54,398 nucleotides of DNA from a bacterium. GTDB lineage: Bacteria; SAR324; XYD2-FULL-50-16. Positions 11,176 through 27,931 of the stretch are shown one piece after another (position 1 is the stretch's first letter; each line of letters begins with the position of its first letter). The stretch covers positions 1-54,398 of the forward strand of contig JAJRZQ010000026.1 of the NCBI GenBank assembly GCA_024275165.1, given 5' to 3'. The position numbers and the translations under genes were made by a program. Below the pieces are notes generated by a model that did no database searches, was not told the DNA's origin, and saw nothing but the letters and a program-made list of their open reading frames with translations.

Positions 11176-11272
11176 GCACTCTCTCCTTAGGTGGATGATG
11201 GATTCGATTTAAGCTCAAAAACTGAATTTTAAACAATAGCACTTCATCTTTAAACAATCAAGCCTCAAGTTG

Positions 11273-16045: not shown

Positions 16046-16588
16046 TTAATTCTTTCTAAAGGGGATGCCCATCGCTTCCAACAAAGAGAGGCTTTCTTCA
16101 TTGTTCTCTGCGTTGGTTACGATGGTAATGTTCATCCCGCGGATTTTATCAATTTTGTCAAAGTCAACTTCAGGAAAAACCAACTGCTCCTTGATCCCCA
16201 AGGTGTAATTGCCCTTTCCGTCAAAGGCTCTACGGCTGACTCCCTTAAAGTCACGCACCCGAGGGAGGGCGACTCGAACAAGGCGTTCTAAGAAGTCGTA
16301 CATGCGTTTGCGGCGCAGCGTCACGCTGACCCCGATGGTCATGCCTTCGCGTAGCTTAAAAGTGGCAATCGACTTTTTCGCCTTTCGATCAATGCCTTTT
16401 TGGCCCGTAATCTAAGCCAAATAAGCATGAATGCTGTCGAGGCATTTGGGGTTTTGCACTGCTTCCCCAGCCCCGACATTGACCACGATCTTTTCGATCT
16501 TCGGTACCCGATGCAGGTTTTTGTAGTCGTGCTTCTTCTTTAACAGGGGGACGACTTCCTTTTTATATTTTTCGTAGATGCTGCTCAT
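16046..16588 (-). CDS. rplE: 50S ribosomal protein L5 with an in-frame TAG at codon 59
   Basis: The whole frame encodes a 180-residue L5, the normal length, if the TAG at 16412-16414 is read as one amino acid. The first 58 codons give [20 protein letters not shown] and [17 protein letters not shown]; the 121 codons after it give [46 protein letters not shown] and the C-terminal FRKN. There is no frameshift or gap. In homologues the TAG site (before I-T/S-G-Q-K) holds Ala, Leu, Lys, Gln or Arg. L5 binds 5S rRNA and is essential. Either TAG is suppressed here, or it is a sequencing error or mutation; internal reinitiation at Met83 would give only a fragment. The neighbours rplX and rpsN are intact. 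Confidence 0.9.
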
Positions 16589-19583: not shown

Positions 19584-20405
19584 TTACTTGCGTCTAGTGA
19601 CGATGAACCGGTCGGTTCGCTTATTTTTACGAGTCTTGGCGCCCTTGGTGGGCTTGCCCCAGGGGCTGACCGGATGCCTGCCGCCGCTGGTTCGCCCTTC
19701 ACCACCGCCGTGGGGGTGATCTACCGGGTTCATGACCACTCCACGAACCGTGGGGCGTTTGCCTAAATGGCGTGATTTTCCGGCCTTGCCGACTTTGATT
19801 AGGTTATGGTCTCCATTGCCGACCGCGCCGATGGTCGCCCGGCAGTAGATGCTGACGAGGCGAACCTCGCCACTGCGCAATTTAATCTGAGCGAAGTTTT
19901 CTTCCTTTGCCATCAAGGTGGCGCTGGTTCCGGCGCTGCGGATCATCTGGCCGCCTTTTTCGGGCTTCAGTTCGATGTTGTGCAGCAGAGTCCCTAAGGG
20001 AATATTTTTTAAGGGCATGCAATTGCCGGGCTTGATCTCGACTTGCTCGCCGCTCATGATGACGGTGCCGACGCTCAAGCCCGCGGGGGCCAAAATATAG
20101 CGTTTCTCGCCATCGGCGTATTGGATCAGGCAGATCCGGGCGCTACGGTTGGGGTCGTACTCGATGGTCTTCACCTTACCGGGAACCCCGTCTTTATTGC
20201 GCTTAAAATCAATAATTCGGTATTGCTGCTTGTGCCCGCCCCCATGGTGGCGAGTGGTGATGCGGCCGGCGTTGTTTCTGCCGCCCGGTCGCACCTTGGC
20301 GCGGAGTAAACTCTTTTCCGGTTTCGAGGTGGTAATCTCATCGAAGCCCGAGACGCTCATTCCCCTGACGCCGGGGGAGGTTGGTTTAAATTTCTTAATG
20401 CTCAT
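19584..20405 (-). CDS. rplB: 50S ribosomal protein L2
   Basis: A 273-residue L2, required for peptidyl transferase activity and subunit association. Signatures include [20 protein letters not shown], the OB-fold and SH3-like region, and the C-terminal [19 protein letters not shown] with the functionally important His. The last residues, [11 protein letters not shown], are normal. Confidence 0.98.
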
Positions 20406-20483
20406 ATTGCTCCAGAAGGTATAGGCTTCTCAATTTGATGAGGCAAATTGAGTGGTTTCACCCTCAAAGTTAATCTGTTTTAT

Positions 20484-20774
20484 TTACGCGCCTTCAAAGT
20501 ATTCAATGGAATCGCCCTCTTTGAGGGTGATGATCGCCTTTTTCCAATCGGAACGACGCCCGACCGTTTTGCCATGCCGTTTGACCTTGCCTTTCACATT
20601 TAAGGTATGCACCTTTTCTACGGTGACTTTAAAGATCTCTTCAATGGCTTTTTTCAGTTCGATCTTATTGACCTTCGGGGCGACCTTAAAGACCACTTTG
20701 TTTTCCATTTCCTTTTGCCCCATTACCTTTTCAGTGAGGTGGGGCTGTTGGATCAGTTTCCATTGGCTTTTCAT
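20484..20774 (-). CDS. rplW: 50S ribosomal protein L23
   Basis: A 96-residue L23, the docking site for trigger factor and SRP at the tunnel exit. It has LIQQPHLTEKVMG, VNKIELKKAIEEIFKV and VKRHGKTVGRRSDWKKAI. It overlaps the rplD stop by 4 bases. A 78-base gap separates it from rplB, larger than most in this run. Confidence 0.97.
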   Translation of the reverse strand: MKSQWKLIQQPHLTEKVMGQKEMENKVVFKVAPKVNKIELKKAIEEIFKVTVEKVHTLNVKGKVKRHGKTVGRRSDWKKAIITLKEGDSIEYFEGA

Positions 20775-21394
20775 TTCAGTAACCTTCCTTCAACTTCTTG
20801 CAATGCCTCTTTGGTGATGACCAAGTTTTGATGTCGCAAGATGTCATAGACATTCAAGGCGCCCGCGTGCTTCGCCGTGATGCGAGGCAGGTTGCGAGAG
20901 GCCAAAATGAAATTTTCTTCCAACTCGGAAAAGACAATCAAGGCACTGTCTAAATTCATGCTTTTTAATTTTGCCGCTAATTCTTTAGTCTTGCGTGTCT
21001 CAAGTTTTAAGTCGTCCACAACGAGCAACTGGTTTTTACGGATTTTTTCTCCAATCGCGCTGGTCAAGGCTTTTCTTTTCGCCTTTTTATTCATGCTGAT
21101 GGAGTGATCTCGTACCACGGGGCCAAAAACAACTCCCCCGCCTCTGCGGTGAGGGGATTGAGGGTAGCCCTGTCGCGCGTTGCCCGTCCCTTTTTGACGG
21201 AACAGCTTTTTTCGAGCGCCGGAAACCAGACTGCGGTCTTTGACCATGTGGGTTCCTTGACGACGAGCGGCCATGTAATGAACCACCGCATCCTTAATCA
21301 AAAAGGGATGCAGCGGAGCAGCCGCGATGGCGTCGTGGAGTTCCACGGTACCGGTTTCTTTATTCTCTAGGTTTAAAACCTTGAGGCTTGCCAT
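20771..21394 (-). CDS. rplD: 50S ribosomal protein L4
   Basis: A 207-residue L4 with the central loop RKKLFRQKGTGNARQGYPQS and RRGGGVVFGPVVRDHSI that reaches the exit tunnel. In E. coli L4 also represses the S10 operon. It begins behind a strong AAGGAAGG ribosome-binding site, 44 bases after rpsJ. The rplC gene that normally lies between rpsJ and rplD is absent. Confidence 0.97.
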   Translation of the reverse strand: MASLKVLNLENKETGTVELHDAIAAAPLHPFLIKDAVVHYMAARRQGTHMVKDRSLVSGARKKLFRQKGTGNARQGYPQSPHRRGGGVVFGPVVRDHSISMNKKAKRKALTSAIGEKIRKNQLLVVDDLKLETRKTKELAAKLKSMNLDSALIVFSELEENFILASRNLPRITAKHAGALNVYDILRHQNLVITKEALQEVEGRLLK

Positions 21395-21438
21395 GATTCC
21401 TTCCTTTGTAACTTAAATGATCTAGTGGCTTAACTGCC

Positions 21439-21747
21439 CTAGTTCACTTTGATATCGACCTGAACTCCCGCAGAAACATCCAACTTCATCAGTTGATCCA
21501 TGGTCTGGGGGGTGCTTTCGGTGATATACAACAACCGTTTGTGAGTATTGATCTGAAACTGCTCGCGTGATTTTTTGTTCACATGAGGGCTGCGCAATAC
21601 GGTAATTTTTTGTTTCTTGGTTGGTAAGGGCACCGGGCCAATGACATTGGCCCCGCTGCGCTTCACAATAGAAACGATTTCTCTCACGGCCCGATCCAGT
21701 TGGGTTGGGTCAAAGGCCTTGAAATTGATTCTAATCTTTTCGGTCAT
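21439..21747 (-). CDS. rpsJ: 30S ribosomal protein S10
   Basis: A 102-residue S10, also the NusE transcription antitermination factor. It has [40 protein letters not shown] and the end VDIKVN. The stop is TAG, followed two codons later by an in-frame TAA. It follows tuf by 9 bases. Confidence 0.98.
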
Positions 21748-21756
21748 GATTCCTAC

Positions 21757-22956
21757 TTATTCGATGATTTCAGAGATGGCGCCGGCGCCTACGGTGCGGC
21801 CTCCTTCTCGAATGGCGAAACGAAGACCGGGCTCCATCGCGATGGAGTTGATCAATTCTACGGTGATCCCGATGTTGTCGCCGGGCATGATCATCTCGGT
21901 ACCCTCAGGTAGTTTGATGATTCCCGTTACATCGGTGGTCCGAAAATAGAACTGAGGGCGGTAATTGGTAAAGAAAGGAGTATGACGACCGCCTTCTTCC
22001 TTCGTCAAGACATAGATTTCCGCCTTGAACTTGGTGTGGGGGGTGATACTTCCGGGCTTGCAGATGACCTGACCGCGCTCGATATCTTCTCGCTTGGTTC
22101 CCCGTAAGAGAATTCCTACATTGTCGCCGGCCTCGCCTCGATCTAAGAGCTTACGGAACATTTCCACTCCCGTAACCGTGGTCTTGATGGTGTCGCGAAT
22201 CCCGACAATTTCGATTTCCTCACCGACCTTAATGACGCCGCGCTCGATTCGGCCTGTGGCCACGGTGCCCCGACCGGAGATGCTGAAGATATCTTCAATG
22301 GGCATCAAGAAGTCTTTCTCGATGTCCCGTTTCGGCATGGGGATGTAGGTGTCTAAGGCATCGACGAGGTCGATGACGCATTTGTATTCGGGGGCGTCGG
22401 CCGCGGCTGCCGAGGATTCGGCAACGGTTAGGGCGGAGCCGCGAATAATGGGGGTATCGTCTCCGGGGAAATCGTACTCGCTTAAGAGTTCGCGAACTTC
22501 CATTTCGACCAAGTCTAAGAGTTCATCGTCATCAACTTGATCCACTTTGTTGAGGAAAACGATAATATAGGGTACGCCAACCTGCTTGGCCAAAAGGATA
22601 TGCTCGCGGGTTTGGGGCATGGGGCCGTCTGCCGCGGATACGACCAGAATCGCGCCGTCCATCTGGGCCGCGCCGGTAATCATGTTTTTTACATAATCGG
22701 CGTGACCGGGGCAATCGACATGCGCGTAGTGGCGCGCCTCGGATTCGTATTCCACATGGGCGGTGGAAATGGTGATCCCGCGCTCGCGCTCTTCGGGGGC
22801 GTTATCAATATCGGCGTATCCCTTGAAGGTCGCACCGCCCTTCATGGCCATAACTTTAGTAATAGAAGCGGTCAGGGTGGTTTTCCCGTGATCCACGTGA
22901 CCGATGGTGCCCACGTTCAGGTGGGGCTTATCCCGCTTAAAGGTTTCTTTAGACAT
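21757..22956 (-). CDS. tuf: translation elongation factor Tu
   Basis: A 399-residue EF-Tu GTPase that delivers aminoacyl-tRNA. G motifs are [20 protein letters not shown] and NKVDQVDD; domain II has [12 protein letters not shown] and domain III carries the conserved C-terminal [14 protein letters not shown] short insert of Ala-rich residues near position 185-195 makes it slightly longer than the E. coli protein. This is the only tuf copy in the window. It lies in str-operon order after fusA. Confidence 0.99.
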
Positions 22957-23012
22957 CTAGACTCCTCACAAGAAGTGGTTCGGCGTAAATTAAATAATGA
23001 CCACTGAGAAAA

Positions 23013-25043
23013 TTAAACCTTCTCATAGTGGTCGAACATCATAGAAAAGGTAGCACGCCCCTGACTCAGAGAGCGTAAACCAGTAAGATAACCAAACATT
23101 GTAGATAATGCAACCCCTACTGTAAGAAGTTGTAAACCTTTTTTATCTTCAATGCTCTGGACGCGTCCCCGGCGGCTGTTTAGGTCGCCGATGATGTCGC
23201 CGGTAAAGTCGGGAGGGGTAATGACCTCTACCTGCATGACCGGCTCCAACAGCACGGATGACCCCCCCAAGAGCCCTTTGCGCAAGGCAAGGGCCGCGGC
23301 TATCTTAAAGGCTTGGGGATGGTATTCATCCTCTTTGATCTCTAGTTCGGTTACCCTTACTCCCACTTGAATGACGGGGTAACCGGAAAGAATTCCCGAG
23401 GCCAAGCCTTCTTGAATCCCTTCTTCGATCAGGGTTTTTGCCTCCGCGGGAGGGGTGAGCCCCTCTGCCCAGCGGATCTCGTTTTCCGCTTTTTCCTTCA
23501 GGGGCCATAACTCAAGGCCGACCCCGGCGAAACTGGTCTTTCCGGCGATGGGCTTGTCAAAGACTTCCTGAACCGAGGTTTGTTTCTCGATGGTTTCTCG
23601 GTAAGCTACCTGCGGCTTGCCGATGGTCACCTTTAAGTTGAACTCGCGGCGCATGCGATCAATTAAGATCTCCAAATGCAATTCGCCCATTCCGCTCAAG
23701 AGGGTTTGACCCGTTTCCTTGTCTTGGGTCACGGCAACCGAGGGGTCTTCTCGCTCCAGTCGCCGTAAAACCTCTTCCAGCTTTTCTTGGTCGGCCTTGG
23801 TTTTGGGCTCGACGGCAATCGAGATAACCGGGGTCGGGGGGTCAATCGGCTCTAAGACGATTTCTTCTTTTTTCCGGCACAGGGTCTCTCCCGTATTGGA
23901 GAATTGAAAGCCCGCGACGGCGACAATCTCCCCGGGCCCAACTTCGGCCAATTCTTCTCGTTTGTTCGCGTGCATTCTAAAGATTTTGCCGACCCGCTCT
24001 TTTTTCTCCTGTTCGGGGTTATAGAGCTGCTCGCCTTGTTTTAGAACGCCAGAATAGATTCGCAGGTAGCTAATCGCCCCGGCGAAACTGTCTGCCTGGA
24101 TCTTGAACACCAATGCGGCCAGGGGTTCATTGGGATCTGCCTTTCTGGCCACAACCTGGGTGGTTCCTGGTTTAACCCCTTTGATTGGAGGTACATCCAA
24201 CGGACTGGGCAGGAAATCCACCACGGCGTCTAAGAGGGGTTGGATGCCTTTATTCTTAAAGGCCGACCCACACAGGACAGGCGTGATTTTATTTTTGACG
24301 CAAAGATTGCGGATGATCCCCGTCAGCTCTTTTGCTTCAATCTCTTCGCCTCCCAAAACCTGTTCTAGGAGTTGGTCGTCAAAGAGGGTTAGCCTCTCTA
24401 AAAGGCTTTCTCTCGCCTCTTGGGCAAGTTCTTTAAGGTTTGGCGGGATTTCTCTCCGCTCCACCACGGCTCCTTGGCTCTTTTCGCTAAAGTAAAGAGC
24501 CTGCATGCCGATTAAGTCGATCAACCCCGCGAATTGATCCTCTGCGCCCAGCGGAATGCTGATCGGCACCGGGTTTCCCTCGAGGATGTCTTCGATTTGC
24601 CGAACCACTTCGTTAAAGTCCGCGCCCACGCGGTCCATTTTATTAATGAAGGCCAAACGGGGGACATGGTAATGGTCTGCCTGCCTCCAAACCGTTTCGG
24701 ATTGGGGCTGTACCCCGCTGACTCCGCAGAAGACGACAATAGCGCCATCAAGGACCCTTAAGCTGCGTTCGACCTCTAAGGTAAAATCCACATGGCCGGG
24801 GGTGTCGATGATATTGATCTGGTGCTTGCCGTTCCGCTCCCAAAAGGTAGTGGTGGCTGCCGCGGTGATGGTGATCCCCCTCTCTTGTTCTTGGGGCATC
24901 CAGTCCATCGTGGCCGCTCCATCGTGTACCTCTCCGATACGGTGACTGCGACCGGTATAAAACAAAATCCGTTCGGTGGTGGTGGTCTTGCCGGCATCGA
25001 TATGAGCGATAATGCCGATATTACGAAACCGATCTAGTTCCAC
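23013..25043 (-). CDS. fusA: translation elongation factor G
   Basis: A 676-residue EF-G, which drives ribosomal translocation. G motifs are [21 protein letters not shown] and NKMDRVGAD; later domains show [18 protein letters not shown] and the domain IV/V segment [13 protein letters not shown]. It is about 15-25 residues shorter than E. coli EF-G, mainly by small deletions, but complete. Its place between rpsG and tuf argues that it is the main EF-G rather than a paralogue. Confidence 0.98.
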
Positions 25044-25061
25044 CTCAAGGCCGATTGATGC

Positions 25062-25535
25062 TTACCACATGTAATGGGCGAAAGCGCGATTCGCTTCGGC
25101 CATCTTATGGGTATCTTCCTTCTTTTTTACCGCCGAGCCGCGATTATGAAAGGCATCGAGGAATTCACCGGCCAAGGCCGCGCCCATGCTTTTTTCATTG
25201 CGCTTGCGAGCCGACTCGATCAGCCAGCGAATCGCCAAGGACAAGCGGCGTTCTTCACGAACCTCAACCGGGATTTGGTAGGTGGAGCCGCCAACCCGGC
25301 GAGATTTCACTTCTAAAGAAGGGAATACATTTTTGATTGAAGCCTGAAAGGCCTCTAGGGCACTCGCCCCTTCGGCCCCCTCCTCTAAACGGGTCAAGGC
25401 GCCATACATTACTTTTTCGGCCACTTCTTTTTTGCCGTCCTTCATCAAGGCGTTGATGAATTTAGCGACTTGAGCGCTGCCGTATTGGGCGTCAATTTGT
25501 TGTTCGCGTTTGACCGCGCGGTGTCTTCTGGACAT
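25062..25535 (-). CDS. rpsG: 30S ribosomal protein S7
   Basis: A 157-residue S7 that organises the 30S head. It begins [20 protein letters not shown] and has [19 protein letters not shown] and [10 protein letters not shown]. In E. coli it is the str-operon repressor. It starts 2 bases after the rpsL stop. Confidence 0.98.
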
Positions 25536-25537
25536 GC

Positions 25538-25909
25538 TTACTTCCCTCGCTTGGCGCCGTATTTACTGCGGGCCTGTTTGCGGTTTGATACGCCTTGGGT
25601 ATCCAAGGTGCCCCGAATGATGTGGTAACGCACCCCGGGGAGATCTTTTACCCTCCCGCCACGGATCATCACTACGCTGTGCTCTTGCAGGTTGTGCCCT
25701 ACCCCGGGGATGTAGCTGGTCACCTCGATCCCGTTGGAGAGGCGCACCCTGGCGACCTTGCGCAAGGCCGAGTTCGGCTTTTTGGGGGTGGTGGTATAAA
25801 CCCGGGTGCAAACGCCGCGTTTTTGCGGGCAGGCTTGCAGAGCAGGCACATTGTTTTTTTCGATGATCGTCTTTCGCCCCTTGCGGACGAGTTGGCTTAG
25901 AGTGGGCAT
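25538..25909 (-). CDS. rpsL: 30S ribosomal protein S12
   Basis: A 123-residue S12 of the decoding centre and first gene of the ribosomal run. It has [20 protein letters not shown] and [20 protein letters not shown]. The Lys of TPKKPNS and the Asp-Leu-Pro-Gly loop are wild type at positions where streptomycin-resistance changes occur. It starts with ATG at 25909 below a leader of about 180 bases that contains several hairpins. Confidence 0.99.
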
Positions 25910-26089
25910 AGTCTTTGAATCTTTCTTTTCGCCTTGAACGCCAAGGCCTTGCGAAATGAGGGTACAGGGAAATTCTGTGCCCTAATCAGCAATAGCTACC
26001 AGCAGGGGGCTAAGGAGGCAAGCCTTTTTTTTGTCCTCGAGGTTTTTTTTAAGTTCCTTGCGCCTCCAACCGCAAAAAATCTTGCCCGT
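25910..26089 (-). promoter_or_regulatory. structured leader upstream of rpsL
   Basis: The gap between the TPR gene and rpsL holds three inverted repeats: GCCTTG/CAAGGC at 25931-25947, GGGTACAG/CTGTGCCC (one mismatch) at 25960-25982, and GGAGGCAAG/CTTGCGCCTCC at 26014-26067 enclosing a T8-CCTCGAGG-T8 core. This resembles a ribosomal-protein leader that could bind S12 or S7, but no consensus for that is claimed. I cannot assign promoter boxes with confidence. Confidence 0.4.
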
Positions 26090-27931
26090 CTATTTGCCCG
26101 CCCTGGTGGAGGGGCCTAGTTGCGCCAAAAGCGATTGGGTGGTCAAACTGGGGTTGGTGCTCGCGGCCCGGGATTGGGCCGCGAGTTTGTTTGCCGCTCT
26201 CAGCTTATCATCGTAAGTGAGCAGTTCCTGCCAGCGGCGCAGCAAATCGGTAAGTTCTTTATTTTTGCGGAGCGCCTTATATAAGGTCGTAAGATATAAA
26301 AAAACCTGTTTATCCACCTTCATGCGAAAGGCGTTTTCAAATTGCTCGATGGCTTGGTAGAAGTTTCTTCGTTTAAAATACATCACCCCCTGACGGAGGT
26401 ATGCTTGGCGTTGTCGTTCCCTAGCCGCTTCCTTTTCCGCTCTTTTTAAATCTTCCAGCTCCAACTGCAAGGCAATGGCTTGGCTTTCTTGTTTTAAGAC
26501 GCGGTAAGCCCGGAGCAGGTTTTGCAAGGCTTCCTTATCGCGTTTCACCTCCAGGGCTTTTTGATACCAGCCCGCGGCGCTTTTGTATTTGCGCTCTCCA
26601 AAGGCTTGGCTGCCCTTGTCGCTATATTGTTGTTGGATCTCGGTGAGTTTTTTTTGGGCCAGCTCTCGATGACTGGCAAAATCCAAGAGCTTTTTTAAGG
26701 TTTCAACAGCTTTGGGGAGGCGGTTTTTTTCCAGATGAATCTGGGCAATCCGCCAATGGGCTTCGGGGTTGCTTTCTTCTGCCACTACGATTTCAAACAG
26801 GGGCAAGGCGGCTTCGGGCCGCCCGGTTTCAAAATAATCAACCGCTTTTTGGTAAATCTCTTGCCGGTCGAAAATCCCCTCGGACTTCATTAAGAGGAAG
26901 GCGGTTAAGATGGCGTACTTGAGGTAGGTGAGGTCGCTGCCTTGATCTTTATAGACGAGCGCCAGGTTGGCATTGTAGTATCGGTTGTAGGGGTCTTTGC
27001 CCAAGAGTTCGACTAAGATTTTCGCCGCCCGGCTCACCTCCTTTAAGCCAGAAAGAACACAGGCCTTGAGCATGGGTAAAAAGGAGTCTTGGCTTTTCCA
27101 TCGGGTTAGGGCGGCGAGGCTCTGGTTGGCCAATTCCCAGGCTTGCTGCCCGATCAGGTGGAGGGTGAGGTTGTACAGCAGGCCTTCTGCTTCTAAGGGA
27201 TTTGTTTTGTACTCGGCCTGAGCTTGTCGCAAGATGAAATCATAGAGTTCTTGGGTCGTGGGTTGGGTTGTTTCGGCTTGGGCCTCTTTGATTTTTCGGT
27301 CCACGGCGTGCAGGGCGAGTAAGTCTAACGCTTGTTCTTTGATCCGCCGCTCTAGGTTTAATTTTTCAAGCTTTTTGGCTTGAGCGGCTTCCTTTTTTTG
27401 GCTCAGGGTTTCTAAGGCTTGATTTAAGCTCAGTTTTGTTTTTTTTGCCGGAGGGAGCAGGTAATGGGTGAAATTAAAGTATTGCGCTAAGGTTTCGCGT
27501 ACCTGAGTATCATAGATTTCTGCCTTGGCGCGGCAAGCGCCGAGGTTGTAATAGGCGAGGCGGTAGTCGGGTTGAATCTTTAAGGCATGGCGGTAGAGGT
27601 TTTCTGCCTGGGCGTAATTGCCTTGCTTGCGAGCCGCGTTGCCTAAGCGGTTGGCGAGTTCCACATTTTTCAAATCATGACGGAGCAGGATCAAGCCAAT
27701 GGAAAGGAAGGATTCCTCATTGCCCTCGCCGGAATAGCGGCTCAAGAGAGGGGTGAGCTCGGCGACGGTTTTTTCCGGTTCTTCGCGGTAGAGTTGATCT
27801 AAGGTGATCAAGGCGAGTTTATACATCTTTGCCCGCAAGAGCCGCACGGCCTTGGCGACTCGATCAGCCACCTGGGCGTCGCGCTTTTCCGGACTGGGAA
27901 AAGAATCGGTGAGTTTATCTAAGAGGCTCAT
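26090..27931 (-). CDS. tetratricopeptide-repeat protein
   Basis: A 613-residue protein without a signal peptide, built of helical repeats. TPR-like units are clear around residues 100-150 (ARKQGNYAQAENLYRHALKI), 375-420 (PEAHWRIAQIHLEKNRLPKA), 445-480 (AFGERKYKSAAGWYQKALEV) and 525-570 (YFKRRNFYQAIEQFENAFRM). A coiled-coil-like charged stretch lies near residues 180-210 and again before the last repeats. TPR proteins of this kind scaffold partner proteins. Its start overlaps the stop of the REC-REC-Hpt gene by 4 bases, so it probably works with that phosphorelay. The stop is TAG. Confidence 0.85.
   Translation of the reverse strand: MSLLDKLTDSFPSPEKRDAQVADRVAKAVRLLRAKMYKLALITLDQLYREEPEKTVAELTPLLSRYSGEGNEESFLSIGLILLRHDLKNVELANRLGNAARKQGNYAQAENLYRHALKIQPDYRLAYYNLGACRAKAEIYDTQVRETLAQYFNFTHYLLPPAKKTKLSLNQALETLSQKKEAAQAKKLEKLNLERRIKEQALDLLALHAVDRKIKEAQAETTQPTTQELYDFILRQAQAEYKTNPLEAEGLLYNLTLHLIGQQAWELANQSLAALTRWKSQDSFLPMLKACVLSGLKEVSRAAKILVELLGKDPYNRYYNANLALVYKDQGSDLTYLKYAILTAFLLMKSEGIFDRQEIYQKAVDYFETGRPEAALPLFEIVVAEESNPEAHWRIAQIHLEKNRLPKAVETLKKLLDFASHRELAQKKLTEIQQQYSDKGSQAFGERKYKSAAGWYQKALEVKRDKEALQNLLRAYRVLKQESQAIALQLELEDLKRAEKEAARERQRQAYLRQGVMYFKRRNFYQAIEQFENAFRMKVDKQVFLYLTTLYKALRKNKELTDLLRRWQELLTYDDKLRAANKLAAQSRAASTNPSLTTQSLLAQLGPSTRAGK

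Follow-up and report, generated by a model that had tools for sequence, protein, structure and literature searches.

The ribosomal protein L3 gene lies outside the S10 operon across the bacterial phylum SAR324

Few bacterial gene orders are as well conserved as that of the S10 operon, which runs rpsJ-rplC-rplD-rplW-rplB-rpsS-rplV-rpsC-rplP-rpmC-rpsQ in its canonical form, and nearly all bacteria keep rplC, which encodes the ribosomal protein L3 that initiates large-subunit assembly, in the large ribosomal gene cluster. In the stretch of DNA analyzed here (hereafter, the window: 54,398 nucleotides, contig JAJRZQ010000026.1 of the SAR324 assembly GCA_024275165.1), rpsJ instead runs directly into rplD. 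Where, then, is the gene for L3, and is its absence from the operon a fault of one assembly or a property of the lineage? The junction and its surroundings comprise the following features:

21757..22956, minus strand: tuf (EF-Tu), the usual upstream neighbor (PF00009/PF03143/PF03144)
21439..21747, minus strand: rpsJ (ribosomal protein S10), upstream of the vacant rplC slot (PF00338, E-value 2.8e-34)
21395..21438, minus strand: rpsJ-rplD intergenic stretch, the usual rplC slot, 44 bases with the ribosome-binding site for rplD
20771..21394, minus strand: rplD (L4), now directly after rpsJ (PF00573, E-value 6.6e-65)
20484..20774, minus strand: rplW (L23), the usual next gene (PF00276, E-value 4.7e-33)
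19584..20405, minus strand: rplB (L2), the usual next gene (PF03947/PF00181)

Pfam matches to the flanking genes bear out the sequence-only reading that rplC is missing between rpsJ and rplD. That reading had also described a ribosome-binding site for rplD and no remnant of rplC, and the gap indeed contains a purine-rich run of this kind, AAGGAAGGA, and nothing similar to L3 within its 44 bases. Compared with the canonical operon, the genome retains the remaining genes with their order, strand, and tight spacing, and differs in the vacant slot and in the placement of rplC on another contig. From rpsL to rplQ, the str-S10-spc-alpha run is in the usual order on one strand. The gaps between its genes range from -4 to 128 bases, and rpmJ was located in the 128-base gap between infA and rpsM. 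The further claim that every other gene of this run is in standard order needs one correction as to intactness, as rplE (L5; window 16046-16588, minus strand) contains a single in-frame TAG at approximately 16409 in a frame that is otherwise full-length. The map gene (methionine aminopeptidase), often situated between adk and infA, was not found between them (window 11176-11272). None of the 17 relatives that gave a match shares the rplE stop, and TAG terminates 10 of the 59 open reading frames listed for the window, so recoding of TAG is less likely than an error in the sequence or a nonsense mutation private to this genome. No known RNA family matched window positions 20000-26600.

The genome search that the sequence-only reading had suggested, in the expectation that L3 would be encoded elsewhere, returned exactly one match (genome G000). 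This is an intact open reading frame of 210 amino acids on the minus strand of contig C38 (3920-4552), and its product is a full-length L3 by comparison with PF00297 (E-value 3.1e-16; 59.8 bits, where the curated cut-off is 22). Adjacent genes encode a tyrosine recombinase of the Phage_integrase family, a protein that matches no Pfam family, and a class-V aminotransferase.

To place this genome among its relatives, we surveyed 52 genomes of the phylum, which fall in one class, four families (f1-f4), and 26 genera. L3 was detected in 45 of them and L4 in 47, with both present in 42; the seven genomes without L3 are probably incomplete. L3 lies beside S10 or L4 in none of the 45 genomes that encode it, and the surroundings of rplC in all 45, spanning up to 15 kb and less on short contigs, include none of S10, L4, L23, L2, or S19. 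The two proteins are encoded on different contigs in 40 of the 42 genomes holding both, and on a single contig in G038 and G028, where they are approximately 180 and 306 kb apart. The rpsJ-rplD junction could be read in 45 of the 47 genomes with L4 (G036 and G050 are cut by a contig edge), and in all 45 rpsJ leads straight into rplD without rplC. The raw gap across 47 loci, two genomes being represented twice, ranges from -29 to 97 bases with start codons unrefined. One genome, G001, contains a second, short L3 match (contig C15, 4333-4473; E-value 2.8e-4; 89-codon frame), which may be a fragment or come from contamination. A SAR324 FISH probe sequence matched the 16S rRNA of seven genomes exactly in one case, with one mismatch in another, and poorly in five.

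These counts bear on the possibility, raised by the sequence-only reading, that assembly lost a stretch carrying rplC from between rpsJ and rplD. The source genome is drafted in 47 contigs and has a likely base error in rplE, either of which might invite such an explanation, but the same junction recurs in separately assembled genomes, at 45 of 45 readable junctions in the phylum and at all 16 read in a second phylum, and an intact rplC is present elsewhere. A local deletion is refuted as an account of the junction, and we regard an assembly error as having next to no chance of being correct. The relocation of rplC is real, fixed, and inherited, and not an artefact.

The same script recovered the S10-L3-L4 order at 75 of 80 outgroup loci, which are the nearest L3 matches in a genome scan rather than an even sample of bacteria. 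Two of the remaining loci (L114 and L119) have L3-L4 without a detected S10, one (L123) is cut off after L3, and two (L102 and L128) have rplC alone, with rpsJ adjoining rplD in both genomes. L102 (genome G053) belongs to the Spirochaetota, where L3 was detected in 56 of 60 genomes. Among the 30 best-scoring spirochaete loci, 27 have S10-L3-L4, two have S10-L3 with L4 unseen, and one (L298, genome G223) has rplC alone. These two spirochaetes resemble the window's phylum in having a solitary rplC, and in G053 rpsJ adjoins rplD. In contrast to that phylum, the displacement is not fixed, and rplC follows rpsJ at 29 of the 30 spirochaete loci. At L276 and L279, no rplD was detected within approximately 1.4 kb downstream of rpsJ-rplC, a possible operon split.

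An L3 phylogeny including 24 hand-picked genomes of the window's phylum places their sequences in one clade (SH-aLRT 99), within which f3 and f4 form supported sub-clades and f1 groups with f2 (91). L4 from the phylum is likewise a single clade (support 81). Because L3 forms one clade whose branching largely mirrors the families, rplC very probably left the S10 operon before the phylum radiated, and has since been inherited vertically at other locations as an ordinary single-copy L3 gene. In an alternative history, a foreign rplC entered the genome of the stem ancestor, whose own copy was later lost. The route is plausible, and the spirochaete at L102 may offer a parallel, in that its L4 groups with Treponema (98) and its L3 falls elsewhere, a placement that is weakly supported. 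However, the phylum's L3 lies inside no sampled foreign group, in trees that give no resolution of its deep position, and we consider replacement of the native L3 unlikely.

What surrounds rplC varies from family to family, which leaves no ancestral landing site to point to. The gene rpsT is directly upstream of rplC in seven of eight f4 genomes (G028 has rplS and rnhB a little farther out); rodA and cmk flank rplC in f2; and a divergent mltG lies beside it in genus g9. In f1 the neighbor is a recombinase, represented by a homologous cluster of 10 members in the rplC regions. This cluster, together with the Phage_integrase-family gene adjoining rplC in G000, could be read as the trace of a mobile element that carried rplC, with the recombinase as agent. 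The recombinase nevertheless does not accompany rplC in the layouts examined from f2, f3, and f4, its conservation in f1 appears vertical, and its score falls short of the cut-offs for XerC and XerD, making this a very improbable account.

Removed from its operon, rplC would be transcribed in one of two ways, from a sigma70-type promoter belonging to it alone or as the final gene of a unit, after rpsT. We scored the 150 bases upstream of rplC with a simple sigma70 model against shuffled sequences (G037 has no upstream sequence for this or the hairpin test). Six of 10 genomes of f1, the family of the window, score at p ~0.005, mostly with TTGACA-18-TATAAT, which points clearly to a putative rplC promoter in that family. 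At p values up to 0.05, the model identified candidates in 0 of 1 f2, 2 of 25 f3, and 0 of 8 f4 genomes (8 of 44 over all families), compared with 4 of 45 in a control upstream of rplD. We accordingly rejected the proposal of a dedicated promoter in all families and retain it, as a prediction, for f1.

Genus g9 has an aligned TTGTAA/TATAAT-like pair approximately 90 bases upstream of rplC that is insignificant in the sigma70 test. Between this pair and the ribosome-binding site, approximately 40-60 bases upstream of rplC, L160 and its relatives share a 7-bp hairpin, found in 10 of the 13 readable g9 genomes. In an alignment from which G017, G036, and G044 were left out beforehand, the hairpin not being evident in them, 95.7% of cells are paired, vs at most 53.6% for slid versions. 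Both partners have changed in just one of the seven pairs, and the covariation score was attained in 11 of 500 shuffles. These patterns weakly suggest a leader hairpin in g9. Genomes of g10 have a different hairpin near the same place, as judged by eye. In the L160 rplC region, the search for known RNA families yielded a single chance hit, to a snoRNA, and no match above the gathering score.

The other solitary outgroup rplC, L128, led to a second phylum in which the displacement appears to be fixed. Among 117 genomes of the phylum of G052, the genome of L128, L3 was detected in 110 and L4 in 110, with both present in 106; the two are adjacent in none of these 106. All of the rpsJ-rplD junctions read there, enumerated above, lack rplC. 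This phylum is apparently the Myxococcota, since the MYXO-CTERM sorting domain (TIGR03901) was detected in 11 of 16 of its genomes tested (G052 not among them) and in none of four genomes of the window's phylum or 14 controls. Both phyla have rpsJ directly followed by rplD and a single rplC elsewhere. They differ in that rplC of the second phylum usually stays fairly near the S10 operon (median distance between L3 and L4 71 kb, range 5.8 kb to 1.2 Mb, for the 36 genomes in which one contig carries both), has eno among its neighbors in some genomes, and belongs to a phylogenetically separate lineage.

Could one event account for both phyla? A single ejection of rplC in an ancestor shared by SAR324 and Myxococcota would fit their apparent fixation (0 of 42 and 0 of 106 adjacent), and Myxococcota served as the outgroup in the published SAR324 tree. 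We constructed a phylogeny of concatenated S10, L4, L23, L2, and S19 (767 columns, 57 rows), with 16 rows from the window's phylum, 12 from the second phylum including L128, 28 outgroups, and L102. The window's phylum is recovered at 100/100, while the second phylum branches with canonical Desulfobacterota-type genomes (91/92), and the displaced state requires four changes. Because this tree parts the two phyla, and constraining them to one clade is rejected by a narrow margin (p-AU 0.038), independent moves of rplC appear favored, though not proved, by these sequences. A comparison of rplC neighborhoods found no common neighbors, its hits being overlapping or antisense to L3, scattered singles, or low-complexity matches in GC-rich genomes, and a landing site common to both phyla was rejected. 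Single ejection is thus improbable. We would give only an outside chance to the broader proposal that one loss in a SAR324-Myxococcota ancestor marks their relationship, that rplC has its own control through an L3-responsive g9 leader, or both. Such a loss, if true, would be a rare genomic change linking the two phyla.

The favored history, departure of rplC before the radiation of SAR324, may have proceeded by duplication, after which clean loss of the original copy would have joined rpsJ to rplD. Expression of the moved gene would then free the supply of L3 from the S10 operon transcript, and presumably from any feedback acting through that operon. Relocation of genes out of ribosomal operons is a known kind of event. 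We found no earlier description of the present case, in which a single gene has moved and the change is fixed throughout one phylum and apparently a second: displaced rplC was not mentioned in the portions of the literature that our search returned, including parts of PMC8143376, PMC3840699, PMC9031357, and PMC8046335. For annotators, an rpsJ-rplD gap without rplC is here no assembly fault. The displacement offers an easily read gene-order character for deep bacterial phylogeny, and the lineages that carry it are natural cases for studying how cells keep L3 in balance when its gene is not linked to the operon. The clean and lasting removal of rplC alone indicates that L3 need not come from the S10 operon transcript.
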